From positions 1 through 64,000 of the forward strand of contig JAYMGJ010000026.1 of NCBI GenBank assembly GCA_037178675.1: 64,000 nt of DNA. Direction: 5' to 3'. Below are positions 5,469 through 35,466 of the stretch, piece after piece. A program made the position numbers and the translations under genes. The notes beneath the pieces are model-generated. The model was not told the origin of the DNA. It did not search any database and saw nothing but the letters and a program-made list of their open reading frames with translations. Within the stretch, counting starts at the first letter, position 1. The number at the start of each line of letters is the position of its first letter. Origin of the DNA: Scleroderma bovista. Lineage: Eukaryota > Basidiomycota > Agaricomycetes > Boletales > Sclerodermataceae.

Positions 5469-5741
5469 ATGGCAGAGCCTCGAAAGTCATCGTGGAAAAA
5501 GGCACCTAGTGCAAAGGCACATGAAGGAGGAAGTCAGAAAGCGAAAAAAACAAGTGTTCGTTCACGGGCACCAAAGTCCAAAGCTTCTCCAAAAACACGG
5601 AAACGGAAGACTCATTCAGACAATACTAGTGACTGTGGGTCAGAAGAGGATGATGGAGAGGAAGGGGTTGCAAGTATCTCAAAGAAACATCAACGGAAGA
5701 GGAAACACCAGCGCCATAGGAGCCCTAGTATACATGTTTAA
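5469..5741 (+). CDS. Small Lys/Arg-rich frame inside the hAT-like element
   Basis: It encodes a 90-residue basic protein beginning MAEPRKSSWKKAPSAKAHEG, followed by further Lys/Arg runs, one acidic patch (SEEDDGEEG) and a basic tail. It has no recognisable domain. The composition resembles the nuclear-localising N-terminal tail of DNA-binding proteins or transposases. It lies just inside the left end of the element and before the tandem array, so a deleted transposase N-terminus is my preferred reading. It could also be a chance frame. Confidence 0.35.
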   Translation: MAEPRKSSWKKAPSAKAHEGGSQKAKKTSVRSRAPKSKASPKTRKRKTHSDNTSDCGSEEDDGEEGVASISKKHQRKRKHQRHRSPSIHV

Positions 5742-5774
5742 AGGGCACAGAACACATCCATCAAATTGTCTGCA

Positions 5775-7145
5775 GAGTATACCCTATAGTTAACCTGCAA
5801 ACCTTTGTACACTTTGTTCACAATGGTTCGCAACACTCTACATAGTTGGTACAATAGTATAAAGGCTTGTACATGTGTTTACAAGGTGCAGAACATGACT
5901 ATCAAATCATCAGCAGAGTATACCCTATAGTTGACCTGCAAACCTTTGTACACTTTGTTCGCAGTTGTTCGCAACACTCTACCTAGTTGGTACAATAGTA
6001 TAAAGGCTGGTACACATGTTTACAAGGTGCAAAACATGACTATCAAATCATCAGCAGAGTATACCCTATAATCGACCTAAAAACCTTTGTACACTTTGTA
6101 CACTTTGTTCGCAGCTGTTCGCACCACTCTACCTAGTTGATACAATAGTATAAAGGCTGGTACACATGTTTACAAGGTGCAAAACATGACTATCAAATCA
6201 TCAGCAGAGTATACCCTATAGTCAACCTGAAAACCTTTGTACACTTTGTTCGCAGTTGTTCGCAGCTGTTCGCACCACTCTACCTAGTTAGTGCAATAGT
6301 ATAAAGGCTGGTACACATGTTTACAAGGTGCAAAACATGACTATCAAATCATCAGTAGAGTATACCCTATAGTCGACCTGAAAACCTTTGTACACTTTGT
6401 ACACTTTGTTTGCAGTTGTTCGCAGCTGTTCGCAACACTCTACCTAGTTGGTACAATAGTATAAAGGCTGGTACACATGTTTACAAGGTGCAAAACATGA
6501 CTATCAAATCATCAGCAGAGTATACCCTATAGTCGACCTGAAAACCTTTGTACACTCTGTACACTTTGTTTGCAGTTGTTTGCAGCTGTTTGCAACACTC
6601 TACCTAGTTTGTACAATAGTATAAAGGCTGGTACACATGTTTACAAGGTGAAAGACATGACTATCAAATCATCAGCAGAGTATACCCTATAGTCGACCTG
6701 AAAACCTTTGTACACTCTGTACACTTTGTTCGCAGTTGTTCGCAGCTGTTTGCAACACTCTACCTAGTTTGTACAATAGTATAAAGGCTGGTACACATGT
6801 TTACAAGGTGAAAGACATGACTATCAAATCATCAGCAGAGTATACCCTATAGTCGACCTGAAAACCTTTGTACACTTTGTTCGCAGCTGTTCTCAATGCT
6901 CTACATAGTTGGTACAATAGTGCAAATGCTTGTACAGGTGTTTACAAGGTTCAGAACACAACCATCAAATCATCAGCAGAGTCTACCCCTATAGTCAACC
7001 CCACAACCTTTGTACACTTTGTTTGCAGCTGTTCTCAGCTGTTCTCAGCACTCTACCTAGTTGAGTCAATAGCATGAAGTCTTATTCAGGTATTTACAAG
7101 GTGTAGAACATGTCATCACATCATCACCAGAGTCTACCCCTATAG
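5775..7145. repeat. Tandem array, about nine copies of a 140-160 bp unit
   Basis: Each unit runs from TACCCTATAGTCGACCTGAA through CTTTGTACACTTTGT, a run of TGTTCGCAGC sub-repeats, CACTCTACCTAGTTGG, GTATAAAGGCTGGTACACA and ATCAAATCATCAGCAGAG. Copies begin near 5779, 5921, 6061, 6210, 6361, 6521, 6681, 6841 and 6985. Unit length varies mainly by the number of TGTTCGCAGC and GTACACTTT sub-repeats. The outer copies are the most diverged, as expected if the array grew by unequal exchange in the middle. Confidence 0.9.
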
Positions 7146-7620
7146 TCAAGCCCCTGGGTAAACCTGTTACAGGTCAGCACCCTTACACCCATGGAAAAGA
7201 CTCACACCCTTGGGTGTATGTGTGCAGGTGTCATGCAGGTTGGGGTGCAGGTATGTACTCAGACTGGTCTTTGAATTACCTGGTTGCAACCAGTTTTGAT
7301 ATGTTTTTTCACTTAGCTCTCGAATGCTTTGAACTGCAACCATGGTCTGGTCCTTTTTTGGTCCAGTTCAGTCTGGTTTGTGGACTTTGTGTGGTCCTGC
7401 AACTGGACTTTAAGACACTATCTATGCCCAAAAAAGACCGGTCCAGACCGGTCCTGCATCGGTCCTTGACCCCAGCACCAATCTACCAGGACTGGGACCA
7501 CACTTGGCAGGACCTTGGGCAGGACCAGGACTGCAGTCCAGTCCTAAATTGGTCCGGTCCCAGTCCGGTCCTCGGTCTTTCATCGGTCCTAGGACCGGAC
7601 CTTTAAACACTAACCAGAAC

Positions 7621-8751
7621 GAGCAAAGAAGCTGAAGAATTGAAGGAGAAACGAAGGAAAGAAGAGAAGAAACGATTTTAGCGCCGAAATGTCATTTTTA
7701 GGTGCCCAGTGCTGGCATTCCGATATTTTGAATAGCTCCACCATTTCTGAAGCTATCAGGCACGTGACTATACCGTCAGAGAGCCTAGAGTGTGGTCTAT
7801 CTGCCTGTCAAGTTCCGACGTAAATCCGTTCATTTCCCACGGAGATATTCCCCCCGCAATCCAGACACTCGTCTCATCGCTCACTATGGAGTCCGTATTT
7901 TCTCTGGATCATTTCTCCACTATTGCTGCAGATCTCCACTATGTCCTGCTCTTAGGACAGCCTCTCCCTGAGTTCCCGTGCACTGCCTGGCACATATCTT
8001 CCCAGCCTGCTCCCTCAGTCCCCCTCGTTCTCGGTCAGCGCGTTCTCCTTGTCAATCCCCCTATTAATCCCAGATCTTCCTCATTGTTGTCCCATCAAGT
8101 TCTTGATGGTACACAGCCTCCCATCAAACTTCTTAGGCTGTGCATCAATGACTCCCTTCTGCTGTGCAGTGACTCATCCCTTGCTTACTGATGCTCTCTT
8201 GTCATCAGTATTACTCTATCCCTTTCGCATTTTTGGTATATTACTCAGCTGATGACTCACTCCCTTACCAATCAATCTTGTCATGCAGCTTACTCATTCC
8301 TTTACTCAGCAGCTTATTCATGCTCCCTATGCTTACTCATTTCTGCTTATGCCTTGCTTACTGATCGCTTACAAACCCCTTACAAAGCTCTTACCAATCC
8401 CTTACCAATCCTTGACAAATTCTGCTTACTCCCTTCTCTTTTTGTACTTTAATGCTGTGCCCCCCCATGTATTTAAACCCCTGGGCTCAGCCCAGTGAAA
8501 AGAGAGCCGAATTGCACGAAATTATCCCTCTCTCAGTCCCTCTCAATCAGTATCCCCTCAGTTCTTTGAGTCTTGTAGGCTTCAGTGAAGGTCTAAAGAC
8601 TCTGATATTCAAGTTTTATCCAATCTATTCAAGTCCAAGTCTTTCCCTAGGCTCAAGTGGAGTCTAGCCTGTCTATCCTTCATATCCCATTGCTTCTGGA
8701 CGTCAGGAGCCCCCTTGCCCCTCTGCTGCACCAATCTCTAGGTGTAGTATC
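7621..8751 (+). other. Possible retroelement LTR sequence, left part (interrupted)
   Basis: After a purine-rich stretch (7621-7690) there is CT-rich sequence with a TATA-like GTATTTAAACC near 8468, then many short CTTACTC/CCCTCTCAGTC tracts. This composition resembles the R-U5 part of fungal LTRs. The 133-residue open frame at 7790-8191 has no domain I recognise and I do not call it a gene. The sequence appears to resume at 13622 after the foldback element. No second LTR copy was seen, so the assignment is weak. Confidence 0.3.
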
Positions 8752-9009
8752 CACTTCAGTCAACCACCATTTAGGACCTATTAGGTTTGTATATTTCTAC
8801 AGATGTATCTACCTATGAGGTCCTGACAGGTTGGAAATTCCCAGCTGCCCATGGAGATTCTCCATTCTCCAGCACCATGCATGGGGATTCTCCAGAGCCC
8901 TATTATAATTCTCCAGCACTATGCTTGGAGATTCTCCATAGCCCTATTTTACATCATTGGAGAAATGTATTTATCCATAATTATTATATTTAATTAATTA
9001 TTTAGCAGG

Positions 9010-9540
9010 TGGCTGGGGTCCAAATTGGACTTTCTCCAGGGCTAAATAGGCCTTTCTTTGAGTGCATATGGGACTTTCTCCAGGATTAAATGGGCCTTAC
9101 TTTGGGTGCATATGAGACTTTCTCCAAGGCTAAATAGGCCTTACTTTGGGTGCATATGAGACTTTCTCCAGGCTAAACAGGCCTTTTGTTGAGTGAATAT
9201 GAGATCTTCTCCAGGGTTAAATGGGTGTTACTTTGGGTGCATATGGGACTTTCTCCAGGACTAAATTGACCTTTCTGTGGGTATAAATTGGACTTTCTCC
9301 TGGGTTAAATAGGCCTTTCTTTGTGTGCAAATAGAGGCATTCTCCAGAGTAATTGGGCCATTTTCTGAGCATCAATAGGACTTTCTGTGGGGTTAAGTGG
9401 GCCTTTTTCTGTGTGCAAATAAGACTTTCTTCAGGCATAATAGGACCATTTTGAAGTGCAAAAGGGACTTTCTCCACACTAACTAGGATCTTTTCTGAGC
9501 ACAAATGGGACTTCCTATGAGTTAATGGAGAATTCCCAAG
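9010..9540. repeat. Foldback arm zone 1: units of about 45 bp
   Basis: Roughly a dozen diverged units of the form GGACTTTCTCCAGG, GTTAAATGGGCCTTT, TTGGGTGCATATG. The mirror zone in the right arm is about 12916-13345 and lacks two of the units, which accounts for the 90-bp arm-length difference. Confidence 0.85.
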
Positions 9541-9845
9541 GTGGTATGGAGAATCTCCAGGGTGGTGTGGAGAATTGCCAGGGTGGTGTGGAGAATTGGG
9601 GAGAATGTACATGGTCATGCAGAGAATCTTCATAACAATGTGGAGAATCTCCTTGGTGGTGTGGAGAATCTCCATGGTGGTGTGGAGAATCCCCATCATG
9701 GTGTGGAGAATCTCCATGGTGGTACAGAGAATCTCCATGACAGTGTGGAGAATCTCCATGGCAGTGTGGAGAATCCCCATCATGGTGTGGAGAATCTCCA
9801 TGATGGTGTGGAGAATCTCCTTGGCAGGGTGGAGAATCCCCAATC
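9541..9845. repeat. Foldback arm zone 2: units of about 18-21 bp
   Basis: Units close to GTGTGGAGAATCTCCATGGT repeat about fourteen times. GGAGAATCTCC is itself a near palindrome. The mirror zone lies at 12611-12915. The long open frames crossing this zone on both strands are a by-product of the repeat length and not genes. Confidence 0.9.
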
Positions 9846-10069
9846 CAAGGTTAGATGTAGTCTAGCAAAAAACTTTTCGCATCACAGTTTTTTGTTTTGA
9901 TCATAACACTAGTAAATCTTCACCAATTGCTTAGGTAAGACCGCTACTGGATTTGTATAATCAGTGGCTACAACTTTTAGTAAGGCAACAAAGCATACAA
10001 ATAACACATACAAACATGTACAAATAGCCCCTATCTATATATGATCCAATATTTATCTTCACAAATTTG

Positions 10070-10950
10070 ACCCCCTGATTAGCTAATGTTGTGTAGTGTT
10101 TGACTACCAAAAATGCGGACCCCTGATTAGCTAATGTTGTGTAGTGTTGACTACCAAAAATGCGGACACCTGATTAGCTAATGTTGTGTAGTGTTGACTA
10201 CCAAAAATGCGGACCCCTGATTAGCTAATGTTGTGTACTGTTGGTATTGTAGTGTTGATTACCAAAAATGCGGAATATTGATTAGTGTTGTCTAGTGTTT
10301 GTGTGATAGTATTGATTAGCAAATGTTGTGTAGTGTTTATGTACTACTGTTGATTACCAAAAATGTGTAGTGTTAGTGTTGTAGTGTTGTAGTGTATTGT
10401 TTGTTACCAAAAATGCGGAGTATTGATTAGCAAATGTTGTGTAGTGTGTGTGGTGTAGCTTATTACCAAAAATGCGTAGTATTGATTAGCAAATGTTGTG
10501 TAGTGTGTGTGGTGTAACTTATTACCAAAAATGTGTAGTGTTGTGTAGTGTTTGTGGTGCATTGTTTATTACCAAAAATGCGTAGTATTGATTAGGAAAT
10601 GTTGTGTAGTGCATGTGGTGTAGTGCTTTTTACCAAAAATGTGTAGTGTTGTGTAATATTTGTTGAGTAGTGTTCATTACCAAACATGTGTAGTAGTGAT
10701 TAGGAAATATTTTGTAGTGTTTGTGGTGTATTGTTTATTACCAAAAAGCGTAGTATTGATTAGGATATGTTGTGTAGTTTGTTTGTGGGGTAGTGTTCAT
10801 TACGAAAAATGCGTAGTATTGATTAGGAAATGTTGTGTACTGTTTGTGGTGTAGGGTTGATTACCAAAAATGCGGAGCATTCATTAGCAAAGGTTGTGTA
10901 GTGTTGATTACCAAAAATGCATAGTATTGATTAGCAAATGTAGGGTGCCT
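10070..10950. repeat. Foldback arm zone 3: TACCAAAAATGCG / TTGTGTAGTG repeats
   Basis: About twenty irregular units combine ATTACCAAAAATGCG, GTATTGATTAGCAAATG and TTGTGTAGTGT. The mirror zone is 11506-12386. No coding content. Confidence 0.9.
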
Positions 10951-13621
10951 TGATTAGATAAGGTCCAGAAGCACCACTACTCCCAGAATATTACTATATT
11001 TGGTCACAAAAAACATATGGAAGGCGTGGGAAAATACCCCACAAAATGCGGAGATTGACAAAAACTTGCTATATCACACAACACAAAGCCTATCCTGGCC
11101 AATAAATGCTGCCAACAGGCTACTAACACCCCACAAGGCTTATATACTGCTGTTCCTGGGATGGTTAGAGGCACACCATCCAAAATGTAAAAAAAGCGAA
11201 AATGTGCATCATATTAGGACACTTTGTCCAATGCTGCAGTATGCATGGTCAGTAACAACAGCTTAAGGGTCCAGACTAGTTGTGCCTCTAACCATCCCAG
11301 GAACAGCAGTATATAAGCCTTGTGGGGTGTTAGTAGCCTGTTGGCAGCATTTATTGGCCAGGATAGGCTTTGTGTTGTGTGATATAGCAAGTTTTTGTCA
11401 ATCTCCGCATTTTGTGGGGTATTTTCCCACGCCTTCCATATGTTTTTTGTGACCAAATATAGTAATATTCTGGGAGTAGTGGTGCTTCTGGACCTTATCT
11501 AATCAAGGCACCCTACATTTGCTAATCAATACTATGCATTTTTGGTAATCAACACTACACAACCTTTGCTAATGAATGCTCCGCATTTTTGGTAATCAAC
11601 CCTACACCACAAACAGTACACAACATTTCCTAATCAATACTACGCATTTTTCGTAATGAACACTACCCCACAAACAAACTACACAACATATCCTAATCAA
11701 TACTACGCTTTTTGGTAATAAACAATACACCACAAACACTACAAAATATTTCCTAATCACTACTACACATGTTTGGTAATGAACACTACTCAACAAATAT
11801 TACACAACACTACACATTTTTGGTAAAAAGCACTACACCACATGCACTACACAACATTTCCTAATCAATACTACGCATTTTTGGTAATAAACAATGCACC
11901 ACAAACACTACACAACACTACACATTTTTGGTAATAAGTTACACCACACACACTACACAACATTTGCTAATCAATACTACGCATTTTTGGTAATAAGCTA
12001 CACCACACACACTACACAACATTTGCTAATCAATACTCCGCATTTTTGGTAACAAACAATACACTACAACACTACAACACTAACACTACACATTTTTGGT
12101 AATCAACAGTAGTACATAAACACTACACAACATTTGCTAATCAATACTATCACACAAACACTAGACAACACTAATCAATATTCCGCATTTTTGGTAATCA
12201 ACACTACAATACCAACAGTACACAACATTAGCTAATCAGGGGTCCGCATTTTTGGTAGTCAACACTACACAACATTAGCTAATCAGGTGTCCGCATTTTT
12301 GGTAGTCAACACTACACAACATTAGCTAATCAGGGGTCCGCATTTTTGGTAGTCAAACACTACACAACATTAGCTAATCAGGGGGTCAAATTTGTGAAGA
12401 TAAATATTGGATCATATATAGATAGGGGCTATTTGTACATGTTTGTATGTGTTATTTGTATGCTTTGTTGCCTTACTAAAAGTTGTAGCCACTGATTATA
12501 CAAATCCAGTAGCGGTCTTACCTAAGCAATTGGTGAAGATTTACTAGTGTTATGATCAAAACAAAAAACTGTGATGCGAAAAGTTTTTTGCTAGACTACA
12601 TCTAACCTTGGATTGGGGATTCTCCACCCTGCCAAGGAGATTCTCCACACCATCATGGAGATTCTCCACACCATGATGGGGATTCTCCACACTGCCATGG
12701 AGATTCTCCACACTGTCATGGAGATTCTCTGTACCACCATGGAGATTCTCCACACCATGATGGGGATTCTCCACACCACCATGGAGATTCTCCACACCAC
12801 CAAGGAGATTCTCCACATTGTTATGAAGATTCTCTGCATGACCATGTACATTCTCCCCAATTCTCCACACCACCCTGGCAATTCTCCACACCACCCTGGA
12901 GATTCTCCATACCACCTTGGGAATTCTCCATTAACTCATAGGAAGTCCCATTTGTGCTCAGAAAAGATCCTAGTTAGTGTGGAGAAAGTCCCTTTTGCAC
13001 TTCAAAATGGTCCTATTATGCCTGAAGAAAGTCTTATTTGCACACAGAAAAAGGCCCACTTAACCCCACAGAAAGTCCTATTGATGCTCAGAAAATGGCC
13101 CAATTACTCTGGAGAATGCCTCTATTTGCACACAAAGAAAGGCCTATTTAACCCAGGAGAAAGTCCAATTTATACCCACAGAAAGGTCAATTTAGTCCTG
13201 GAGAAAGTCCCATATGCACCCAAAGTAACACCCATTTAACCCTGGAGAAGATCTCATATTCACTCAACAAAAGGCCTGTTTAGCCTGGAGAAAGTCTCAT
13301 ATGCACTCAAAGAAAGGCCTATTTAGCCCTGGAGAAAGTCCAATTTGGACCCCAGCCACCTGCTAAATAATTAATTAACTAATAATTATGGATAAATACA
13401 TTTCTCCAATGATGTAAAATAGGGCTATGGAGAATCTCCAAGCATAGTGCTGGAGAATTATAATAGGGCTCTGGAGAATCCCCATGCATGGTGCTGGAGA
13501 ATGGAGAATCTCCATGGGCAGCTGGGAATTTCCAACCTGTCAGGACCTCATAGGTAGATACATCTGTAGAAATATACAAACCTAATAGGTCCTAAATGGG
13601 GGTTGACTGAAGTGTAGTATC

Positions 13622-21733: not shown

Positions 21734-22920
21734 ATGTCCCCCCAGGCCCAACTTAACCAGGATTGCAGTGGTGTTCCTCCCCGAGTGGATGGGAGATACA
21801 GTTTACAAGAATTCCTTGGATCAGGGTCATATGGTCAGTCAGCACAGCTTCTGTGTTCAGAACTTGGTGAGGCTGAGCAGAAATTTCAGTGACTGTTTAC
21901 AGAGCGCTCAACATCATCAACTGCCAGAGTTACGCAGTAAAACTAGAAGCTTGTTCTGATGTGGACACATCATCGATCAAATGGGAATACAACATCCTAA
22001 GACAACTCTCTTCAGGTACATCGAATACTGGCATCCCCAATGTCCATTGGTTCGGCCGAGAGTCGAATTTCGACGCCATTGTCATCGACCTCCTTGGTCC
22101 CTTGCTGTACAACCTCATTTCAACCCAGGGAACTTTCAATCAGCTCACCGTACATTATATTGGTGAGCAGATGGTGAGCAGTCTGTAACTATGTAGATCG
22201 AGCTCAGTACTACTGATTTTTCTTCAGCTGTCTCGAATTCAATACATTCATTCGTGTGGTTATGTCCACAGTGATATCCAACCACAAAACATACTCATGG
22301 GGCTCGACGATCAGTCGCTCACAGCGTTCATCATCGACTTCGGTGTTTCCAAGCCGTTTTCCCACACCCTGACTGACTCTCATGGAACCCATCAAGCATC
22401 AGGTCTAATCGGCACGCCAGCTTTCGCTTCTATTAACAGTCATCTCGGTTTGGAATTAGGTCAGTGGGATGACCTTGAATCCCTCGTTTATGTCTTAATT
22501 TATCTCTCTTTTGGCTCTCTTCCATGGCTCCAATCCAACAAACGTAACTCGAGGAGTTCCAAACAGAAATCATCAACAATACTCGAGCACAAACGAATGA
22601 TACCTGTCGAGCAGTTGTGCGGTGAACTCCCAGAGTTATCCACTCTACTCCTCTACACATGCATGCTGTCCTTTTCAGAGACTCCCAACTACGATACATG
22701 TGCTCTTTACTTCATAAGGTCAGTGGTGGTTGGCATCTTTCAATTGATGACGCTCAGGTCATCAAGCAAGACCTTCACCCAGAGGTTTCCAATGGTCTCA
22801 GCACTCCCCATAGACCCCACCCTTCTGCATCTGGGCCTGCAAGTGTACAGTGCCTGTCTCCAGTCCCTTCCAGGTCTCGTCGAGGATGCACATCCACACG
22901 CTGCGGCCTGGACTCTTTAG
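21734..22920 (+). CDS. Casein kinase 1-like protein kinase
   Basis: The start ATG at 21734 gives MSPQAQLNQDCSG, then GRYSLQEFLGSGSY, the glycine-rich loop. An intron (GTCAGT donor at 21834, TTTCAG ending 21889) leads to TVYRALNIINCQSYAVKLEA, which carries the ATP-binding lysine. SSIKWEYNILRQLS, PNVHWFGRESNFDAIVIDLL and GEQM follow. A second intron (about 22174-22228) joins to LSRIQYIHSCGYVHSDIQPQ, where HSD stands in for the catalytic loop HRD, and then IIDFGVSKPFS, the DFG metal site. GTPAFASINSHLG and DDLESLVYVLIYL match the CK1 activation and helical regions. The C-terminal part after about 22715 may be spliced differently (possible intron about 22719-22757). It is a Ser/Thr kinase; mushrooms carry many such copies. 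All key residues are present. Confidence 0.8.
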
Positions 22921-24680
22921 TCGCCAAGACACCCTTGAGAGTGGCACGGGGATCACAAGCTATTCAGATGTTGATGAAGCGATAGAGTATCATTCTCGTA
23001 AGTTTGCATTTGCATTAGATATTTCCACTCCTTCCTGATTTCTTAAGCTGTAGATATGTTTTTGAACATTCGGTTGTGTGCATAGTCCTCATGTTCATTG
23101 TGTTCGAGTTCCTATCTACATGCTGTTGTACGGTACAGTTTAAAATATTTTGTACTGCTCGAACATGCTTGGAGTCAGCTAAAAGTCAGCTTAAGTCGAC
23201 ACGTGTACCAATTGGCTATGAGCCAGCTAAGCGCTGATGCAGAGCCTGTGCCGAGGCGACCGCATTGCCTAGACTATGTTGACTAGCCGAGTTCCCACGT
23301 CAGCCGTCATTAGCTGAAGTCAGCTCCATATTAGCCAAGTTATGGCAACACTACCCCCACCATCAACATCATCGATGTGGCCATCAATGCTAACCATGAC
23401 GACGACGACGACAGCCCCACCACCATCCCCAGCCTCAACGGCAGTGATGCAACCACCCACATCACCAGCATCATCAACCTGGCCACCAATGACAATGACA
23501 ACGACCCCCCGTCACCATCCCCGGCATCAACACAACATATATTATTTAGTTATTCATGATGTATTTTGTAGTTTTCAATAGAACTAATATACTTATTTTT
23601 TTTACTCTACTGAATACTTGAATGGAGTGACCAGTGGGAACCAGACTGGCACGGAGTTGGACAGACTTGCACAGAGTTGGACAGGCTGGGTGGTCGGCTA
23701 AGTGCTGTCAAGTGCTGTCAGCTCGGCTAATCGGAAGGGCTGGTTTGCTGATGATCAAAATCAAGATATCTATTAAGATTTATGGTAGTTCTGTGTATGA
23801 TGAGCACCTCAAGTGTGGTGGTAGCTCAATTGGAATCAAGCAGGATGCACAGAATGAGCAAAGTTGTCATCTTATTTCAAATGTCGGGCCATAGTATTTA
23901 TGCAATATCTCTACTATGACATCATGCCGGATGACTCAGTTCAGCTTTGGTGGCTGTCTCTGACTTGCCATCTAGCTATGGTCTTAACAATATCAACAGG
24001 AAGGTCTGAAGGCCCACCATGCCTTCTTGAGCAGAAAAGCTTCATCTCGGAAGGATGACAATGTACACAATAACACGTCAGCACTGCTGAGTTCAGCATT
24101 GGACACAGCAGACAGATATATGCCATGATGTGGTGGAAGGCAATGGTGCTGCAATTTGAACTTGAGCACTGTGCACAGGCCTGCAGTAGCACTTTGGTGT
24201 GCCAGAAGGAAGGACAATGAATCTACAATCATTGGCACCCTACATCACAATGATTGATGATGACATCACTCATGCAGACAAAGTGACTGCACTGAAAAGA
24301 CAACAAAGATGGTCCTGTGCAGAAGGAGGACACCTGCCACCAGCACTATCATGATAATAGTAGTAGAAATAAATAGATGAAAATACAAAAACACAACATA
24401 GTGGACACAAATTCATGCCAGCACCTCACCTGTGCACTCAGCAATCCAAAATCAAACCCTACATTACAGTTACAATTTTCACCTGTTGCCATGTGCATTG
24501 TAATACCAAGTAGTATGCTATTGTAATATATTGTAATGATGTTAAAATTGCATGTCATTTTCTGAAAAATGATTAGATTGAATCTTCCTGCAGTCCTGTA
24601 TTTAACTCAAGTCTTACTAATGCTGATGCTATCCTAAAGGGTTAATTAGCCCTTGACTGCACTACTGCAGAAAGACTACA
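22921..24680. other. No gene seen; CCACCA/ACG-rich tract at 23345-23535
   Basis: 23345-23535 is a low-complexity run of ACC, ATC and GAC triplets that is open in several frames by composition only. Short AGTCAGCT/AGCCAGCT motifs recur at 23170-23340 and 23690-23740 and might be the ends of a degraded element, but no target duplication was found. Confidence 0.4.
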
Positions 24681-24851: not shown

Positions 24852-25127
24852 TTGCATCATTTACTAGCAAAATTGAAGGAGTTGAAGGTGGTGATAACAA
24901 TATTACTGTGCTCATTCCATGAATGGCCTTGGAGGCCCTGGAGGATGAGTTTCCAGTCTCACTTTGATGCTTTTGCAATGGCCATCAATAAATCTCAGGG
25001 CCAGAGTGTCAAATGTAGGACTACTAGATTTACATACCCCTGTTTTTTTTCATGTAGTCAACTTTATGTGGCTCTTTCCAGATGTGCCCATCCTCACCAT
25101 GTTAAGCCCATTTTTCTCAAGGACTGA
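24852..25127 (+). pseudogene. C-terminal remnant of a Pif1/Helitron-type helicase
   Basis: The frame contains FDAFAMAINKSQGQSVK and then SQLYVALSRCAHPHHVKPIF. INKSQGQ and QLYVALSR are the conserved last motifs of Pif1-family helicases, including those of Helitrons. Between them the usual PVFSHG-like stretch is degraded (YPCFFSC). A trace of the preceding motif (ILSAKNVVVNES) lies in another frame at about 24820. Only the tail is present, with frame breaks, and no replication-initiator domain or Helitron 3' hairpin was seen. Confidence 0.6.
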
Positions 25128-25330
25128 ATAATACTAAGACTACAATTGTTGTATTTACTGAAGTGCTTAGAGATTTCATTTGATTCATTGATTTTTTTTG
25201 TGATTGAAATTGAAAATGTTTAAGAATGTCTGAAAGGTATTGTGATTTTATCCTTATTATCCCTGGCAAAAATAGGATAAGCATTGCCCAGCACTGCCTG
25301 CTGAAGGCAGGCACCAGTGCTAGCTGGTTT

Positions 25331-28300
25331 ACCATACATGTATACTAAATATGAGATTAAATCTGTGTAATTCTCATTTTTGACACCCAATTTTAGCATA
25401 CATGTATAATAAATATGATGGAGAATTCATGTGATTTCTGACATTAAGGTCAGTCAATTTAGCATACATGTATACTAAAATATAACATAAAACTCAAGTG
25501 AGTTGCATATTTAACAGGTATATTTTATTACATTAATTATAACTTCTATATAAGGAAGGTACCAAATATTGACAAATATTTGTCACTCACAAATATATAT
25601 ACCTTTGAAATGACAAATTGCAATTTTCACAACTTGACCATTAACCATCACCTTCCTCATTTGGACAATATTTGTCTCTATTTGTACTCTTCAAAATGGC
25701 TAAACATATCACAAAGGTTACAAACAAGGTCAAACAATCAATATTATATAATTCATCCTTTATTTACTAATGTTTATTGTAGGTCACAGCTAATGTAACC
25801 AAAAAGGTTAGTTTTATTTTGTTTTCAGTCACCAAATAGCATACATGTATGCTATTTGGCCTGTTTGTTTTTTGCTTTCCAGTCACCAAATGGCCTGTCT
25901 TTTTTCTATTCTCAGTCACTGGCCTGTTCTCTTTTCATGTCCAGTTATCAAATAGCATACGTGTATGCTATTTGGCCTGTCTTGTTTCCATGTCCAGTCT
26001 CCATTCAATAATCATCTGGCTAACCATTTATCATTCATTAGGAAGCCCTCATGATGAGTCAACAGCTTGCCAGTGAAAGGCTTCGTGATGAGCTTCTCAC
26101 TCATCGCATTGGTTATGGCCTTGTCTGTATTGCCTCACCTGACAACAATGATCTTGGCAGAGGACCCACCTTTGTTCGCCAGACCATGAATCCCCGTCCC
26201 ATCGATCAAGCTATTATCAAGAAAATCAAATCTGATCACATTGCTAATGGTCTCAAAAGTCGAGAGGTCAAATATGCTGTTCAAGTGACTGTAAAACGGT
26301 CCTTGATTGCTGGAGGTGTTGTCAATGAGATCAAGGATGGCGACTACACCAATTTTGTTAAGTGGACTGACAATGCTCCTGGTCAAAAATGTCAGGTTGC
26401 CAATGGAAATCATCGTATCACATTTATGGAGGACAAGTATGCTCTCGAGATCTTCAAGTTAAAGGTGGCACAGGGCCCAGGAACTTCAAAGGACACTCCT
26501 CGCATGCTCACTGAGCGTGCTAATGATATTACCAGCCTTAAAGAAATCTTGCAGAGAGAGGCCATATGGTTGGTTGAATTTTATGATGAAGGTAGGCACC
26601 CTCTTATTAGCATACATGTATGCTAAATTGCATTCACAGATTCCATCTCAGCCAGCCCAACTTCTGGAAGTCTCTTGCATGCTCTCGCCACCAATTATAC
26701 CAAGCCAAGCAAGGATGACAATGAGACAGATCGTCTCAAACTATTACTCAGGAGTCTGCGGGCAAAACCTGTTGATCAACGTGATCATGTTCACAACACT
26801 ATAGCTGCCAGCTGGTCCAGCAAAGAATCTGGCCTCATTCGACCTGCTTTTGTTGCATCTCACTCCGGAATTCTTGATTTCCTAATGCATGCATTTGCCT
26901 TCCCCCATCTCGAATCATCAGCTCGTCTTTCTGTGACATTCTTTTATAGCAATCTAAACCCATACTTTACTGGGGTAAACTTACTCTTCTTTTTAGCATA
27001 CACATATGCTAATCAACTCAACAGCTTTTCCTCACCCTTTTTTCTCCCATGGTTGCCATCCTTGAATACTTGGTTTGCCCCTATATCATGCCTGATGTCT
27101 ATGATGTCACCATCATGGCCTTGGGCAAGGCCACAGACCTGCGCCCCAATACCTCTGACTGCACAAAGGCTCTTGAACATCTCTATGATCATCATCTAGA
27201 CCATGTTCTCAAATCCATGAAAGCACCATTCACACAGCTGTTGGATTCTGGAGAAGATGGTGAAAGTTTGTTTTTTGCTTGGGATCTTGCCTTTTCCGAT
27301 CACCTTTCTCCCTACATGCACCTCTTTGGCTCTGTCGATTCTGAGGAAGCCCAACAATATTGGGAGGCTTTTGATGCTTATTTCGATCAGGTTCTCAGTG
27401 CAACCAGCAAATTTGTCCAGAACCTAATCAGCATTCAAAACTATGCTGTTGATGCTGATATCACTCAGCCTGTACTCCAGAATATGGAGGCAAAACTTAC
27501 GTGGTGGCACCTTGGATTTTATCCAGCTCATGATACCATGATAAATCTCGCCACACCAATGCCCCTTTTTACAGAGTCAACTGTCACTGCCTTCATGATG
27601 AACTGGAACACTAAACACCTCGGTTTGTCTGCTGTAAAAAATTCCAAGTTGGATCACTGCATCTATAGTGACACTGTTTGCGAGGTTAGTCCTCATTTTA
27701 GCATACGTGTATGCTATATCACTCATTTGTTTCTCAGATTATTGAGTGGTTTGCCCCACTCATCAAATTTCCTATCACTGGCAGCAACCAGCGGGGCAAG
27801 AACAAGGGTTGGTCTTGTGCATGGGAGGGTGTTGAAATGTGGTTGAAGAATCGGATGCGTATCACTGATGAGGGTATTCGAAAGTCCTGTCTGCGTCAGG
27901 TAAGCCCCTACAATTCTCACACTCTCCCATCCTCAAAACATATTCAGTTCATGACATTTATGTTGGAGAGGCGCCGCACTGTGCTTCCCCAGATCAAACT
28001 CGTTTACGAGACCATCTTTTCTGGTACACAATTGACCACCACTGCCGATAAATACAAGGCCCTGTTCACCAATGAACAATGGGTGAGCGACCTCAAGGCC
28101 TTTATAAACATATGGGGCAATCAGGTCAAGCTGGCAAATTCCGCTGGCACAGATTCATCCATTCTTCGCCCTGCATGTCCTGATGATCATTTGCAAAACA
28201 TGCTTACGAGTTCCACGTCAGAAGAGTTGAAGAATGCATTTCGAGGTGCCTATCGAGTTTTGAGAGCCACAGGCATCCAGTGGCAGCTATTCACTACGGC

Positions 28301-30012
28301 ACAGCTGACACAAACATTTCTTCTTGCCACTGTTCAAGCTGGACACTACAACCGTCTTCGTCGTACCATGTGGGAGATGCCCACAATGTGGGTCATACGA
28401 CAGGAGCTTGAATCCATGCTGTCCACATTTGCTAAACAAGGCCAGCTCTCCAGTCCATCCTTTGAATGGTGGGATGGCATTGTTGAGCCTCCTACTCTGC
28501 TTGAAAACAACCCGCTTCTCAATGTCCTACCCATTCATAACAATGCAGAGTCCATGGGCACTTATGTCCAGCGTGCTGTCATTGCTCAACAGCTCGAGTC
28601 CAATAACAAGGACACTCTTACAACAATTTATAACCTCGCTCTCAAGGAAGGGTTGGGGACCATTGAAGTCAATGGCAGGCAGTATGTCGATCCGAAACTA
28701 CATGAAGCCACCATTGATTATGTGAATGTGAGTGCCTGCCCCTTTTCTGACCCTACATCATAGCATACACGTATGCTAAATCACTTGCTAATCCAGGCTC
28801 TCGCTGCGATCTCCTACAAACAAGTGAAGCGAGTGAAGGAACCTATGTATGATCTCACAGAGCGTGTCGAGCGTGATGATGTTCGAAACGTCATCCAAAG
28901 CTTAGGCTTTGGTGTTGCTCTCGAAAGAAATCCAAGGAGCATCCCTGTTGCTTCTGCAGAGCAGGCTGCAGAGTATTGGAGGGCGAGAACTGAAGAAGAG
29001 TTGGAGTCTGCTGGCCTTCCCAAAGGCAAGGGAACCACATCACATACACAAAATGCCCAAAAACAAAAAGTGCGGCAGGCAAATATTGTTGCTGCTCAGA
29101 TGCAGCATATGTCCAAGGTCTCTACGGCCTCGGTGATCAGAAAACGTGGGGCATGTCACATGAACTCCAATCTCAACAATCAGGAGATCACAGACACTAG
29201 TGCCAGCTCATCCAGAAAGAAAGGTCAGTAATTCAAAGTTAAAGCATAACTTCTTTCCATTTGACTTCTTTTTTACAGGGCGACATGACACTAGCAACAA
29301 TCTTAGTTCTTCGGTGTCTCCCATCGGTAAGTAGATTTTAATGGCATGTGCATGTCCTCAATTTCTTCTCACCATATAGTACAAAACACTCCATGGGCAA
29401 AGAAATTTGGGTCTTCTGAGTTTCTCAGAAATGTGACCATTCTCAATCAACTGGAGTCCACAACGATAAATAGAGACCCCACTGCCTGGAAGACCATTGT
29501 CTCTGCCCTACATCATGAAGAGACTTGCCCTCCAAACTCGCCAGATCTCATCCAGTTATTGTTCGACTTGCACGAAAGTATCATAGATGAAGGCAAGGAG
29601 CTACTGGTGGCATGGTGTGATGGCCTCAATGACTATCCTAATGATTTAAGGCTGGTGCGCTATTTGATCACATGGAAAGACTTTGAGGCAGAAGATAGTA
29701 AGACCATGCTGACTGAGGGACTTGACAAGTGGAGGCATAAGGTCAATAGCAAAGGCAAAGGCAAAGGTCGTCAAGAGAGTTCTGATGATGAGTTTGATGA
29801 TACTGATGGTGGCACTGGAAATGAGATGGATGTCAGTGATGATTAGTGCATAGTATTTGTTCATAACTTGTGCTATATTTTTGTGTTGTGTACGATAGCT
29901 GACATGAAATCCATGTGTTGATGTTGATGCTTGATATTCATTCCCATGCAGAAGGCAAATAGTTGTCATCAATGATCATTTTGGTAATTGATTTAGTATA
30001 CATGTATGCTAA
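25331..30012. repeat. Family of ten TAGCATAC(R)TGTATGCTA palindromes in and around one gene
   Basis: Copies lie at 25331-25350, 25394-25411, 25460-25477, 25832-25859 (a perfect 28-bp palindrome), 25949-25974, 26607-26626 (perfect over 20 bp), 26993-27012, 27699-27716, 28761-28778 and 29993-30012. The fourth to ninth have an intact outer TAGCATA/TATGCTA frame and vary only in the centre (ACATGT, ACGTGT, ACACAT, ACACGT). Four copies sit in introns 1, 2, 3 and 5 of the ParB-like gene and none is in an exon. In the introns the right half supplies TGCTAAT/TGCTAAA, which fits a fungal branch-point site. Confidence 0.9.
26051..29846 (+). CDS. Eight-exon gene with ParB/Srx-like N-terminal motif, otherwise unknown
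   Basis: Exons at 26051-26591, 26640-26974, 27025-27684, 27738-27899, 27948-28727, 28797-29223, 29279-29326 and 29380-29846 join in frame (3420 nt, 1139 residues), all with GT/AG introns of 48-69 nt. The N-terminal region reads TMNPRPIDQAIIKKIKSDHI, NGL, KYAVQVTVKRSLI and then CQVANGNHRITFM. That resembles the ParB/sulfiredoxin-fold pattern (NPR..I......I...GL ... GxHR), where the HR segment binds nucleotide; this is inference. The remaining 900 residues are helical and unrecognised (for example WWHLGFYPAHDTMINLATPM, FEWWDGIVEPPTLLENNPLL). The tail has a basic KGKGKGRQE segment and an acidic end (EFDDTDGG). No frame damage was seen, so the gene is probably functional. Four of seven introns carry the palindrome described above. 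Confidence 0.7.
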
Positions 30013-32300
30013 ATCTAAGAAGAACTGGACAACACCTGAGAATTTTTCTTTACCACAACTTCTTTCACTTCAAGCACATGGGGTTCCTTTTTGGGTCATC
30101 AAAACCACATGGCATCACACTGCCATGGTCTCCATCTAGTGCTACTATAGAAAGGTGGTGGTTTGCACAGGGCAGGTCTAGCCTAAAGGAAGGGAGAAGG
30201 AGGAGATCTGTAGGTAACCTCAGTATGCTGGCAAGCTACTGAGGGAACTAAGGTACTAGGACTCTACTGTAGTGCGATGCATGCTTATGTAAGTAGGTAA
30301 ATATACCACAACAATCTGTTTATACTCCAACAGCTACAGCAAGCAGCAATCTCCAACTCCTCCCTTCCTTCCTCCCTCATCCCCCACTGCACCACATCAT
30401 TTGTAGTCTATATAGTCTATTTGATTGAATTTGATTTGAGTGAACATATCAAGCTTGATAAGCCTTGAATAACATATCTCTCCCCTATCCTGGCACATTT
30501 TTGGCATTTTTTTGCCGTTTCCTGTCACCAACACCCTCAGTCTGTCACCTGAAGGTCTGTGCCCTATTACCTCATCACATTTCCTTGGATTATGACCATA
30601 TATATCTTATTTTTCGCATTTTTTGCACTTTTCCACCACATTTGGCCCCAGTCTCTGTTAGAATCCACAGGCTGGGGTGATCAGGGTGACCACAATGGGT
30701 GGATGGGTGTGAACCAGGTCCAAATGCGATGGTTATACACAGTACAACTATGCACTATTTATCTCATAGGTAGAATGATCAATATATCAAAACTAATAAC
30801 TGTAATTAGTCTTGTAAGTTTGCCACATAGTGGCCATATATTCTGACAGTCTCCTTTGGAACAACTATTATCAGGCTCATTGAGGGTATGTACCATTCAT
30901 ATGAGATGTTTCCTTGCCTTCTGATCATACCAGAAAATATTGCTGTCATGGACAGCAGGCACCTTGTCCAGGGACATGGCATGTTTGTGTAGATACCAGA
31001 AACAATCAATACCAATAGAAAGGGAAGATTCATCTATGAGAAGGGCCATACTGTATGTAGCAATGTAGAGTATGGTTGGTAGGTACTATCCCTTACACCA
31101 TTGTTGGCACCCCCACCCATGATTGAATACTGCATTGTAGACATTGGAATGCCTCCTACTGGATGACTCACATCCTTCAATGCATACATTGCTCTCTTGC
31201 GAAGCCATGGGAAAACTCTTGAAAAAAGTGTGGTGTGGGTTGCTGCAGTGGACCTAAAGGTCAGAAGAGCTGTAGGAGGAAGTTGGTAACTCTGTGGTGA
31301 CCTCAGTAGATGTTCAAGCTACTTTATTAAAGTAGTACTTGTAGTGACTACTACAAGTGAGTAAGTGTAAAAAGGAGTGTGTAAAGGACTACTTACCCTC
31401 AGTAGATGTTCAAGCTACTGAGGGACTAACAGGAAATACTACTGTGTATGTATGCAGCACCTAGTAATGCATGCTGGTTAATTTACAACATGCTCCCTTA
31501 AACTGTACGAGCTAATAGGGACAGTAGGAAAATCAAATCAAATCAAATCAAAGGTGTTAAATATCAAATGAATGAATACTCAATGATTCCAAATAGAATG
31601 TGTAGTCTGTTGCTCGAGAGTCCAAGTCTTGTTGATGCAAAGGTTTTGTGACTCCTGTGTTGTTACCCAATTTGGTAAGTCATGTCGCGCTGATATTGAT
31701 GTATTTGCACTCAGGTGCATGCTTGATGCGATAGACTTGTCATTGTCACAGCTAACATTTTGCAGGTCCTTCTTCAAGCTCTGGGGGCTGTATTGAAGAC
31801 CTCCAGTGGACATTGATCATGGGGGATCATCCGTATTGAGTGGTAGGGGGTGTATGGGCTTGTACAGGCTATAGTGTCATATTGATGCATCAATCAATGA
31901 CAACTATAGGGCACCTGTGATGCAAGAACACCTAGGACTAGCTTTGGGTTCTCTTGCATCACTCCAATGTAAAGTAATGCATCACTAGTCCTGATGCAAT
32001 CCATTCCCCTTTAGGTTCCCTTCCCCACACAATCCTCAATTGTTTTTCCCTTCCCTTGTCTGCATTTTAGATGATTACATAAACCTTCCAAAAGCGCCAC
32101 TACTCCCAAAACATGTCCACATTTAGTCAATAGCTGAATTACAATAGGGGACTTCAAAGCTGGTTTTCACAAGCAGTTTTGGAGTGGTTTTGGAGTTGAT
32201 TTTGGGCAGTAGTTTTCGTTGTTGTTGTATCGAAAACCAGTGGCTGGTTTTTGCCTGGTTTTTGCAGCACATAGTCAGACTTTGAATTCACTGTGTCACC
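29847..32300. other. No gene seen; scattered short repeats
   Basis: CTCAGTAGATGTTCAAGCTACT occurs near 31302 and again near 31400, with a related CTCAGTATGCTGGCAAGCTACT near 30217. All three are close to the word ACTGAGGGA or to CTACTACAAGTGAGTAAGT. 30330-30600 has the pyrimidine-rich look of a retroelement LTR (TCCCTTCCTTCCTCCC, then ATTTGATTTGAG). I could not define element borders. The sequence near 32092 (GCCACTACTCCCAAAA) resembles a stretch of the foldback element at 10973. Confidence 0.4.
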
Positions 32301-32331
32301 ATACAGTGTTGCCCAACTTGACCACAATACC

Positions 32332-32535
32332 ATGCCTAAAGTACCTAAAAATTGTTCTAATACAGTCTCTCCTTCACTCTCTGGTCCATTGGACAAGTCT
32401 GGGTGCTCCAAAAAGGTAACCACACAGAAGACAAGTGGACAACCAACTGAAAAGGGAAAGAAGGATCCATTGCAAGGAAGTGGCAACAAGAAGCCACATG
32501 TTTTTATCTCATACAGTTGTGTTTGCTCAAAATAG
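32332..32535 (+). other. Short Lys/Ser-rich frame, doubtful
   Basis: It reads MPKVPKNCSNTVSPSLSGPL, then KKVTTQKTSGQPTEKGKK. The composition is like the disordered N-terminal tail of fungal transposases. It has no downstream domain. The preceding sequence (32160-32275) is rich in CTGGTTTT/CCTGGTTTTTGC, similar in style to the MITE at 34895-35466, so a decayed hAT-like element is possible. Confidence 0.2.
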
Positions 32536-34175
32536 GCAACTCAACTATAGACAACAACAAAATCTTAACTACACCTTCAATATTGCACAATCTGGTATTT
32601 TAACTATATGACTGTACTTTAGTAGCTTATAGCTTGAAGATTATCAGGAAAGATATTTGAAATTTAAAGATCTCAGTAGTCGACCCCCCAAAAAAGTGAA
32701 CTTAATGCGGAGTTAGTCGGAGTTACCATATATAGCGATCAGAGTTACCTTTTATAGACATAGCGAATTAAGTAATTCTCAGTTAATTAATATTCCAACA
32801 TTCATCATGAGTGTTGGACCACAGCACCTGTGCGACTTGTATTGTTTGACAGCAAACTCTGCTTGGTGTGCATTGAGCCCCTTTCTGTGAACAGGTGAGG
32901 TTGAGTGAGGTTAAAAAATTTGTATTTTGTACCTGTAAGCATCCATGTAGCGCCAAGTTTTGCAAAAAAAAGCACAGATTGTCTTCACTGGACAATCATT
33001 TAAGATCTCTGAAACAAGATGCTTTGCTGTCTGAAATGTGCTGTCAGCCACCATCCGGAAGCCTGCGGTGAAGTTGCGGCCCATCAAGATCAGTTCCCAC
33101 CATCCACACAGTTCAATGCTGAACACTCACGCACTTTCATCCACCCCCAATACATTTCAATTGGATTCAACTCGCAGTGAAACTTGGGCAAAAACCAACA
33201 TTTGTGCCCTGCCGCTTCAATCACCAGCTGTACAAGTGGTTTCTCTTCTTTGAAGTCTTGCTGATTCATGAGCATTTTCCGCATACAGCAATTGATCCTC
33301 AAGGATTCCTGAACAATGTCAAAATTGCTCTCACCCGGCTCATCACCTCCTTCAGCTGCTGCCTGTGCTTCATGGCGCATCTGATCTTGTGCCTCACGAG
33401 ACAGTTTACAGGTCTGACACTCCCCAACTGCTTTCCTGCCATTCACTGCCTGCAAAACTGATATCAGGCCACACTCCTCCAAAACACAGTGCATCCCCTT
33501 CGCCTGTCCACGGAATGCGAAGTCGGGATGGTGTGGTGGAAGGTCTGATGGGAAGACCATCACCTGCTGCCTTCCACGCAATTCAGGATTTGGGTTGTCC
33601 ACTGGAATAAAGGTGTCATGCATCAAACACTGTTTTCCGCCCAGTCTAACATTCATATCTTTTGCATTCAGGGCATTTTTTGCAAATGTGCCATGTGCTG
33701 ACAACTGGTCGAAGACAAATTCGGCGACCACATTTGGGTACTTCCGTTCAAAAATTGGAATCATTCGTTTTACCTTATGCAACATTCTGTAAGTATCTCT
33801 TCACACAGAATAATAAGACATCATGACTCACTTGTTCAACAAGTTTTTCGTTTGTCCAGAATCCATTGTTATTCTTTCCAGGGTAAATGATCTCACAAGC
33901 ATCCAAAGAGCCCTTGAGTTGACGCTCTGCCAGTAAGCTTGCATTTTCTTTTATTTTGCTTTCTGACAATGCCAGTTGCCCAGTTTGTTCAATGATAAAG
34001 TCCGAAATATGGACTGCACGGCCCTGGCCCTTTTTCCGTAAAGGCATCTTGCCATCATGCACATAAACCTGACGGTGGAGCTCATTTGCATGAACAATGC
34101 TCTCATCGTGCATGATCGGTACATGAAGCTGTTCACCAGGTCCAAGCTGTGGCTTGATTGGCTCAAGACTGTTGT

Positions 34176-34815
34176 CTCTGTATGTGCATCGTAACCTAGT
34201 AATATCTCACTATAAAAATATCCATGTGGTAACAAAGAGCTTAGGCCGTGGGCATCAGTGAAAATATACGTGGCTGTGCAGGGGGGAACAACATATAGGT
34301 TCCGATGAACTTGTCACTGTAGAATAATACATGGCGCTCAAGGATACGCGGCTTTGCAGGACGAATCAGGACGTATATCGAAAGTGGGGGAGCATAGTTG
34401 TTGGCAGGAATCGGACTGGGCATGTGGACGGTGAACCCCGAGAGTAAGGTGCACATTACAACTGGTACATGGTGTGCTGGGATAACCATGGCAGGTGACT
34501 GTGTACATAGTAAGTACCCGTCAAGCACGCTGTGGATTTGTCTACACCTAACAGCGATGAGGCGGGCAAGGGAGGAGAGATTGGCATCAATTGCTGTGCT
34601 ACTACTAGTAACCACATACTAGTAGGTGTGCCAGTGTGTGTGGGTTTGATCGGATCATGCGGCGGTGGTTATGACTGATACATTTGATAGCTGCGCGCGA
34701 ATGGCACACAGTGGTTTTCCATCCAACGTGTATGTACCCTGCTGTACAGTGTATACACCCACTGTGACTTTGGGGCCAGTTTCGAACTCACCCATGTGAT
34801 ACACAGCACCTTACC
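34176..34815. other. Unusually long intron or second insertion in the transposase
   Basis: On the minus strand, FGQNERK is followed by a GTAAGG donor near 34815 and the frame resumes with DNSLEPIKPQLGPGEQLHVP near 34180. Other introns in this window are about 50-70 nt, so 640 nt suggests inserted DNA. It contains related short blocks (ACGTGGCTGTGCAGG near 34270, ACGCGGCTTTGCAGG near 34347). I found no terminal repeats. Confidence 0.4.
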
Positions 34816-34894
34816 TTTCATTCTGACCAAACTTATCCAGGAACTCTTTGCGGTATGCAACCACATCTTCCTGCTCATGGCCATCAACATAGAT

Positions 34895-35466
34895 TAGTGT
34901 TTTAAAGTCCGGTCCAGTCCAGTTTTTTTCCCTTTTTTGGAGGCAACCGGACCAAAACTGGTTGCAAAGATTTCAAATCTTGCTAGGACCGCAACTGAAC
35001 TGATGGCAACTGGTTGTGTATGGTTGCTTGGAGCAGTTGCAACTGGTTGCAACTGGTTTTTCATACATTTTCTTAATGTTTGTACTTATGACTCAAAAAT
35101 GTGCAAAATGAGCACCTGTCAATTTGCGCATTTTGACAGGGTGCTCATTTTGCGCATTTTTGATAGTTTGGATCATGTATTATTATTGATAATATCAATA
35201 ACTGGGCTTTAAAACTATCACAAACACACAAAATTAGCATAGTGTATTACAGATTTCCCTGTATTTTATTTAAAGACCGGTTGCTTAAAAGACCGGTTGC
35301 AACCAGTTGCAACTGGTCTTTTATTTTTTCCTGAGCAGATGCAACTGCAACCACATGGATTGAGGACCCCCCAGGACTGGCAACTGCAGTCCGGTCCAAA
35401 TCGGTTGTGGTCCAGTTCACAGTTGCCGGTTTTTTCGTTTGGTTGCAACTGGACTTTGGAACACTA
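34895..35466. mobile_element. 572-bp hAT-like MITE with 8-bp target duplication
   Basis: The ends are TAGTGTTTTAAAGTCC and the inverse of TAGTGTTCCAAAGTCC (14 of 16 match). ACATAGAT flanks the element at 34887-34894 and 35467-35474. Subterminal regions are filled with GGTTGCAACTGG and its complement. Near the middle a hairpin (35103-35152) pairs GCAAAATGAGCACC with GGTGCTCATTTTGC. There is no coding content. The first bases match those of the larger element at 5151-7612, so the two belong to one family. It sits inside a codon run of the Tc1/mariner-like gene. Removing the element and one ACATAGAT restores the expected reading frame. Confidence 0.9.

Follow-up and report, generated by a model that had tools for sequence, protein, structure and literature searches.

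Why should ten copies of one short near-palindrome gather around a single gene, within its introns as well as beside it, in a stretch of DNA that otherwise holds none? The question is raised by a 64-kb stretch of the Scleroderma bovista genome (positions 1 to 64,000 of contig JAYMGJ010000026.1, contig C26 in our searches), which we call the window. Ten copies of TAGCATACNNGTATGCTA with at most three mismatches were found at 25330-30011, around a gene labelled ParB-like, where 0.14 were expected and 100 shuffles gave a maximum of two. The rest of the window showed no further copy at this threshold, so the clustering described in the first-pass annotation (ten copies in 4.7 kb and no others in 64 kb) was borne out. 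The palindrome has the general form TTTAGCATA-NNNN-TATGCTAAA and reads TTTAGCATACATGTATGCTAAA as a duplex. Judging from the sequence comparisons described below, we propose that it is a putative site at which a single dedicated protein binds DNA and acts on two unrelated genes, the ParB-like gene and a RecQ-like helicase gene on another contig, and we give this reading about an even chance.

The ParB-like gene lies on the forward strand at 26051-29846. In the sequence-based splice model it has eight exons (26051-26591, 26640-26974, 27025-27684, 27738-27899, 27948-28727, 28797-29223, 29279-29326 and 29380-29846), and taking out the seven GT-AG introns gave an unbroken frame of 1139 amino acids. 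The palindrome was present in intron 1 (26592-26639, copy at 26608-26625), intron 2 (26975-27024, copy at 26994-27011), intron 3 (27685-27737, copy at 27699-27716) and intron 5 (28728-28796, copy at 28761-28778), and absent from introns 4 (27900-27947), 6 (29224-29278) and 7 (29327-29379). The exons were free of copies, and the earlier placement of the palindrome in introns 1, 2, 3 and 5 was confirmed on the spliced gene model.

The remaining six of the ten copies stood outside introns. Five of them began 98-721 bp before the ATG at 26051: one at 25330-25347 (TACCATACATGTATACTA), two in an upstream array at 25394-25411 (TAGCATACATGTATAATA) and 25460-25477 (TAGCATACATGTATACTA), one at 25832-25859 (18-bp core 25837-25854), which is the copy said to be perfect over 28 bp and indeed is, and one of 26 bp with a GT centre at 25949-25974 (core 25953-25970). 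These and the intronic copies are on the plus strand. The last, at 29994-30011, begins 148 bp past the stop codon and has the reversed orientation, reading TAGTATACATGTATGCTA on the plus strand.

The label ParB-like comes from an NGNHR motif of the GxxR type, spotted by eye in exon 1. Pfam gave no match for the whole protein and NCBIfam none for exon 1; no relative reached E ≤0.001 among 7996 candidates scored, and a comparison of the first 512 amino acids with viral contigs gave no confirmed relative. Within the genome, the protein matched only its own contig and contig C498 among the matches listed.

The distribution of the palindrome was followed through the whole genome (G000, 51.8 Mb in 850 contigs), whose short introns and KDZ transposase point to a mushroom-type fungus. 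Such searches score the best candidates only, and counts by place refer to the matches listed. The exact pattern occurred at 10 places in the 51.8 Mb, five at the window locus and five on contig C465. With up to one mismatch there were 19 places among the matches listed, eight at the window locus and 11 on C465, and none elsewhere. A degenerate 20-mer with up to one mismatch was found beyond the two loci only at relics on C498, C263 and C633 (among the matches listed), and two isolated 14-mer matches, on C134 in an unrelated context and on C150, equalled the control count. The genome-wide check proposed by the first-pass annotation therefore showed that the motif is not equally frequent across the genome, with near-exact copies at two loci. 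The idea that it is limited to the ParB-like gene did not hold, as the unrelated C465 gene has 18 copies. Both loci shared 520 pairs of 12-mers, 504 of them within palindromes (6-bp margins included); the other 16 stand against counts of 2-14 obtained with six control stretches from the window. Outside the palindromes, the two loci have almost nothing in common. No telomere repeats (TTAGGGTTAGGG, both strands) were found in the window, C465, C498 and C263 stretches.

Contig C465 was considered as a carrier of a paralog of the window gene and this was ruled out, since the window protein matches only C26 and C498 and C465 encodes a helicase. One gene was modelled there, starting at 11983, with N-terminal Cys/His pairs (zf-C2H2, E 0.1, below the cut-off) and with helicase domains (Pfam DEAD 1.9e-17, Helicase_C 1.3e-12); its best NCBIfam match was the RecQ family at 5.5e-17, under the curated cut-off of that family. 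The long middle region had no profile matches and one match in the genome among the matches listed. By eye, this region may resemble tyrosine recombinases, and also fungal telomere-linked helicases. Seventeen of the 18 copies had at most two mismatches and one intronic copy, at 12890, had four. The palindrome occupied 14 of the 15 modelled introns (13 of 15 without the copy at 12890), which with 4 of 7 in the window gene makes 18 of 22 introns. Copies were also carried by the upstream DNA of both genes, five in the window and four on C465, where two degenerate ones were added. Introns 12-14 of the C465 gene (15778-16014), three in succession, were modelled with GC and not GT at their start.

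Introns 1-9 and 12-14 of the C465 gene are related from end to end. They are separated by mini-exons, eight of 30-45 nt from intron 1 to intron 9 and two of 33 nt from intron 12 to intron 14. The length of every mini-exon is a multiple of three; units of intron plus mini-exon were tandemly duplicated. Another sign of tandem growth is an 81-bp upstream unit, present in two copies.

For the comparison of copies, 31 were aligned (alignment A1): 10 from the window, 18 from C465, two from C498 and one from C263. The alignment left aside C465 11353 and 11494 (upstream, four mismatches), C465 14506 (coding exon 11, three mismatches), window 14338 and 46734 (four mismatches), and the second C263 copy and C633, both identical in sequence to the C263 copy used; C465 12890 was retained for its place in intron 8. 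None of the 18 intronic copies departed from the left arm TAGCATA, and 8 of the 18 had an altered right arm. Among the 16 altered right arms of the whole set, 11 had changed from TATGCTA to TATACTA. The surroundings were less conserved, with identities of 0.55 for the C465 mini-exons and 0.40-0.72 for the DNA beside the palindromes. Conservation of the arms far exceeds that of the surrounding intron DNA.

A similar picture was given by a decayed paralog. At C498:152.6-154.3 kb lies a sequence related to the window gene's 3' half, with a protein identity of 53-64% per piece, stops in most pieces and a DNA identity to the window of 0.78 over 1817 bases. The two palindromes that can be compared, in intron 5 (C498:153225) and in the 3' flank (C498:154440), both persist there, and the alignment, judged by eye, fades right after the 3' copy. 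In these pairs 40 of the 41 bases in arms and edges agreed (counted post hoc; p 0.0005 against the 0.78 background), and p was 0.05 once the four changed bases of the centre were included. In addition, C263 and C633 carry one duplicated sequence, about 70% similar to C465:11143-11301, that retains the palindrome.

The centre of the palindrome varied, and the first-pass annotation had seen compensating symmetry in this variation. Covariation over the 31 copies was 0.066 against 0.065 ± 0.010 in shuffled alignments, and 232 of 500 shuffles were as high, which gave no compensatory signal. The four centre bases were CATG in 14 copies, CACG in 7, CACA in 4, CGTG in 2, TGTG in 2, TGCA in 1 and CACC in 1. 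Thirty of these 31 centres fit the decay of two CpGs, that is, of CGCG with each CpG kept or turned into TpG or CpA (the exception is c12455, with CACC), and a compensatory centre was dropped as an explanation. In sequence terms, the variation looks like CpG decay rather than compensation. The non-coding DNA is depleted of CpG, with an observed/expected ratio of 0.04 at 25000-26050, 0.19 upstream of the C465 gene and 0.01 in the C498 relic. Because the centres at 29994 and C498:154440, CATG and TGCA, are each two steps from CGCG, their common ancestor plausibly had both CpGs.

Among the alternatives to a binding site, the one that survives best is control of splicing at the RNA level, in which the motif would act in the pre-mRNA, either by forming a hairpin or by covering the branch point, and jointly set intron retention in both genes. 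In its favour, 18 of 22 introns have the motif, the right arm ends 10-24 nt ahead of the 3' splice site, oriented copies run almost all along the direction of the gene, and TACTAA/TGCTAA resembles a branch site. Of the four window introns credited earlier with a branch-point fit, introns 1, 2 and 5 have it (TGCTAAA/TGCTAAT), whereas intron 3 reads TGCTATA and does not. However, the hairpin is not conserved. The pair C4-G15 was broken in 15 of the 31 copies, covariation stayed at the level of shuffles, and when 16 of the 18 palindromic introns were folded (C465 introns 5 and 7 were excluded), the stem was full in the minimum-energy fold of nine, interrupted in two and absent from five. A fold z below -2 was reached by 3 of these 16 and by none of four other introns. 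Moreover, ten copies (six in the window and four on C465) lie outside modelled introns, one of them reversed. The half that bears CTAA, and looks like a branch site, is the one that varies, towards TACTAA, while the other half, for which no splicing role is evident, is fixed. As the fixed half is not the branch half and pairing is not conserved, neither the branch point alone nor a conserved RNA hairpin is sufficient, and the overlap with the branch point is a secondary feature. We regard splicing control as unlikely, and the splicing hairpin of the first-pass annotation is disfavoured, the arms being kept while RNA pairing is not.

A binding site in double-stranded DNA, which that annotation also offered, fitted best among its three ideas, with two loci, upstream as well as intronic copies and conserved arms; the hairpin and the mobile palindrome discussed below did not fare as well. 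We propose that the palindrome would be bound by one locus-specific protein acting on the window ParB-like gene and the C465 RecQ-like gene. In a bolder variant this protein would be the ParB-like one, for which the first-pass annotation suggested an operator. Sites may have accumulated in DNA free to hold them, namely upstream regions and introns, and part of this build-up could have come about by tandem duplication of units of intron plus mini-exon. In introns, the right half would serve also as the branch-point region and for this reason would drift to TACTAA, with the left half remaining fixed. The role may be self-control or anti-silencing of a selfish system of two genes, in the manner of VANC and its target motif in the VANDAL transposons of Arabidopsis.

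The excerpts of PMC5735166 and PMC10398659 that deal with this system describe YAGTATTAY-type motifs as VANC targets in VANDAL transposons; the short motif of VANC21 occurs upstream of VANA21 as well as in introns of VANC21 and VANB21, multiplies through tandem repeats and acts in anti-silencing. As far as these excerpts go, the likeness consists of a short motif that is confined to the element, lies in introns and upstream DNA of a handful of its genes, and grows in number through tandem repeats, which remodel the exon/intron structure as well. In contrast, the motif of S. bovista is a near-palindrome of 18-24 bp in two single-copy genes on separate contigs. The pieces scanned contained no MULE-type transposase (they gave helicase domains and a sub-threshold C2H2, and the nearby transposase fragment is of the KDZ type), and no relative of VANC turned up, with no search aimed at one. 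Parts of PMC12730594 report transposons of Agaricomycetes that carry TET/JBP dioxygenases, selfish elements thought to counter DNA methylation. Because such transposons exist there, anti-silencing is a plausible pressure in mushrooms, although TET/JBP is an enzyme whereas the palindrome would be a binding site.

Several observations weigh against a dedicated binding site. When three mismatches are allowed, 204 places appear in the genome against 121 for the reversed control, so that background is reached; about 33 of the 204 are copies named here. Each gene is single-copy with one relic, which is no multiplying family, and the gene pieces scanned (the window protein and the C465 pieces) contained no transposase, the KDZ fragment lying about 5 kb downstream on C465. 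The C465 model has a frame break in exon 10, whether real, an assembly error or a missed intron. A simple dimer site expects no direction, but over all 31 copies the right arm was altered in 16 and the left in four, and the nine upstream copies, which have no known splicing, showed the same bias (right altered in seven, left in one). A sequence-specific double-strand site would account for the arms and leaves the directional bias partly unexplained (7 of the 9 upstream copies). A roughly six-fold higher density of CpG inside the sites than around them (9 in 504 bp vs. 9 in 2977 bp, p 0.0004) speaks in favour of a binding site, but the excess is confounded, since the motif probably began with two CpGs; in the C465 upstream DNA (one inside, five outside) and the 3' flank of the window gene (none inside, two outside) the CpGs were mostly outside the sites.

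A tiny mobile palindrome, or a template-switch copy, landing in the non-coding DNA of both genes is quite unlikely. Non-homologous introns do share 18-24 bp and little else, and at 25817-25987 there are upstream units that have the palindrome and others that lack it; these filled and empty units equally fit deletion. Among the matches listed, near-exact 20-letter ones beyond the two loci were confined to the relics, both comparable positions have been unchanged since the paralog split, and no target duplication was found by eye. The preference for introns suggested by the first-pass annotation is accordingly unsupported.

It is also quite unlikely that this is a eukaryotic ParB-type system. 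The ParB-like protein would load on parS-like palindromes that lie in the promoter and introns of its own gene and likewise of the partner helicase gene, spread along both genes, and block silencing as VirB does or aid holding and segregation, with the introns as landing strips. According to passages of PMC12704722, eukaryotes too have ParB folds, which are frequently associated with mobile elements, and the NGNHR motif fits the GxxR box as described there. The palindromic sites are clustered at the gene, ten in 4.7 kb, as parS-type sites are, and the likeness to ParB-parS and VirB-type regulators lies in such a cluster at a gene whose protein has a GxxR-type motif. Unlike those systems, the window gene has introns and would be ParB by its motif, with no helix-turn-helix or partner identified, and the second, non-ParB gene holds more sites than the ParB-like gene.

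Introner-like elements, introns that spread themselves and carry the palindrome along, are a very unlikely source. C465 introns 1-9 and 12-14 are related over their full length, and independent introns are slightly alike outside the motif (mean score 12.1 vs. 10.9 in shuffles, 1 in 500 of which was as high). Those C465 introns, however, are tandem duplications within one gene, with mini-exons, and the motif occurs in two genes only, with ten copies outside introns. Near-identical whole introns in many genes, which mark introners, were not found here; the genes are two and independent introns differ outside the motif. According to portions of PMC8469720, fungi have introner-like elements and internally symmetrical stwintrons, which likewise place a symmetric sequence over the splicing signals of short introns, but those are whole introns in many genes with terminal inverted repeats of 45-55 nt, whereas the present site is short, is limited to two genes and lies also outside introns.

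It is highly improbable that the C465 RecQ-like helicase protein uses the copies as sites of recombination or replication: C465 encodes a helicase and many sites are in direct orientation, but recombination between intronic sites would remove coding exons, and exon 11 matched no recombinase profile. Least probable of all is a functionless leftover of shared ancestry and tandem duplication, for although the C465 copy number comes largely from local duplication, the genes are unrelated, several copies lie in unrelated introns and the arms are identical amid diverging neighbours. In titles and abstract openings, the literature on fungal-intron palindromes, telomere-linked helicases, RecQ with tyrosine recombinase and fungal ParB presented no comparable two-gene motif.

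Similar letters were met in other collections, in four stretches of two bacterial metagenome-assembled genomes (centres CTAG and CTGG) and in four phage contigs, and we read these matches as convergence. In a Doudnabacteria genome (L035 2923; L036 1387 and 3345; L038 6537) the sequence was TAGCATACTAGTATGCTA, three times exact and once with two mismatches, with a different centre. Phage contigs L040 (3383, 4222, 4697, 4933 and 6072), L041 and L042 have similar flanks and several copies of TAGCATACATGTATGCTA, some just before a gene start; this repeat looks like an operator-type sequence that converged on the same letters.

The neighbourhood of both loci contains further repeats. A dispersed repeat ends at about 25328 in the window, and the first palindrome begins 1-2 bp past it; its terminus (25320-25330) reads CTAGCTGG and adjoins the palindrome as if the repeat was inserted at the palindrome edge. 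Helitrons terminate in CTRR, to which this terminus may be likened. On the 3' side of the locus, a second repeat spans about 30145-30333, and the upstream region contains two overlapping AT-rich palindromes, CAAATATTGACAAATATTTG and TGACAAATATTTGTCA, at 25563-25585. The window also has an inverted duplication at 9116-11175 and 11281-13340, with arms of 2060 bp that are 99.85% identical and about 105 bp apart, and C263 (L020) has one like it, whose 3.04-kb arms are 99.5% identical; these are recent events or assembly folding. On C465, the KDZ transposase fragment lies at 22842-23899 (L006 8852-9909; Pfam 1.1e-43), about 5 kb downstream of the helicase gene. A repeated gene on the minus strand (6972-11143 and 30851-34984), to which Pfam assigned no function (three pieces, no match), recurs on C617, C8, C36, C314, C444 and C465 with an identity of 88-98% per piece; its repeat ends at 11143, where the similarity to C263 starts. 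The tandem arrays at 5735-7154 of the window and 7199-8797 of C465, the latter inside this repeat, are related, with units of about 150-160 bp that are about 65% alike.

The two loci illustrate that, with no conservation of RNA structure, a site can fill the branch-point region in 14 of the 15 introns of one gene. If the palindrome is indeed a dedicated binding site, it would represent a private cis-code that joins two unrelated genes and is set within their introns. It would then be a fungal counterpart of the plant VANC target motifs, or a parS-like cluster at a eukaryotic ParB-like gene, which to our knowledge would be the first one known.

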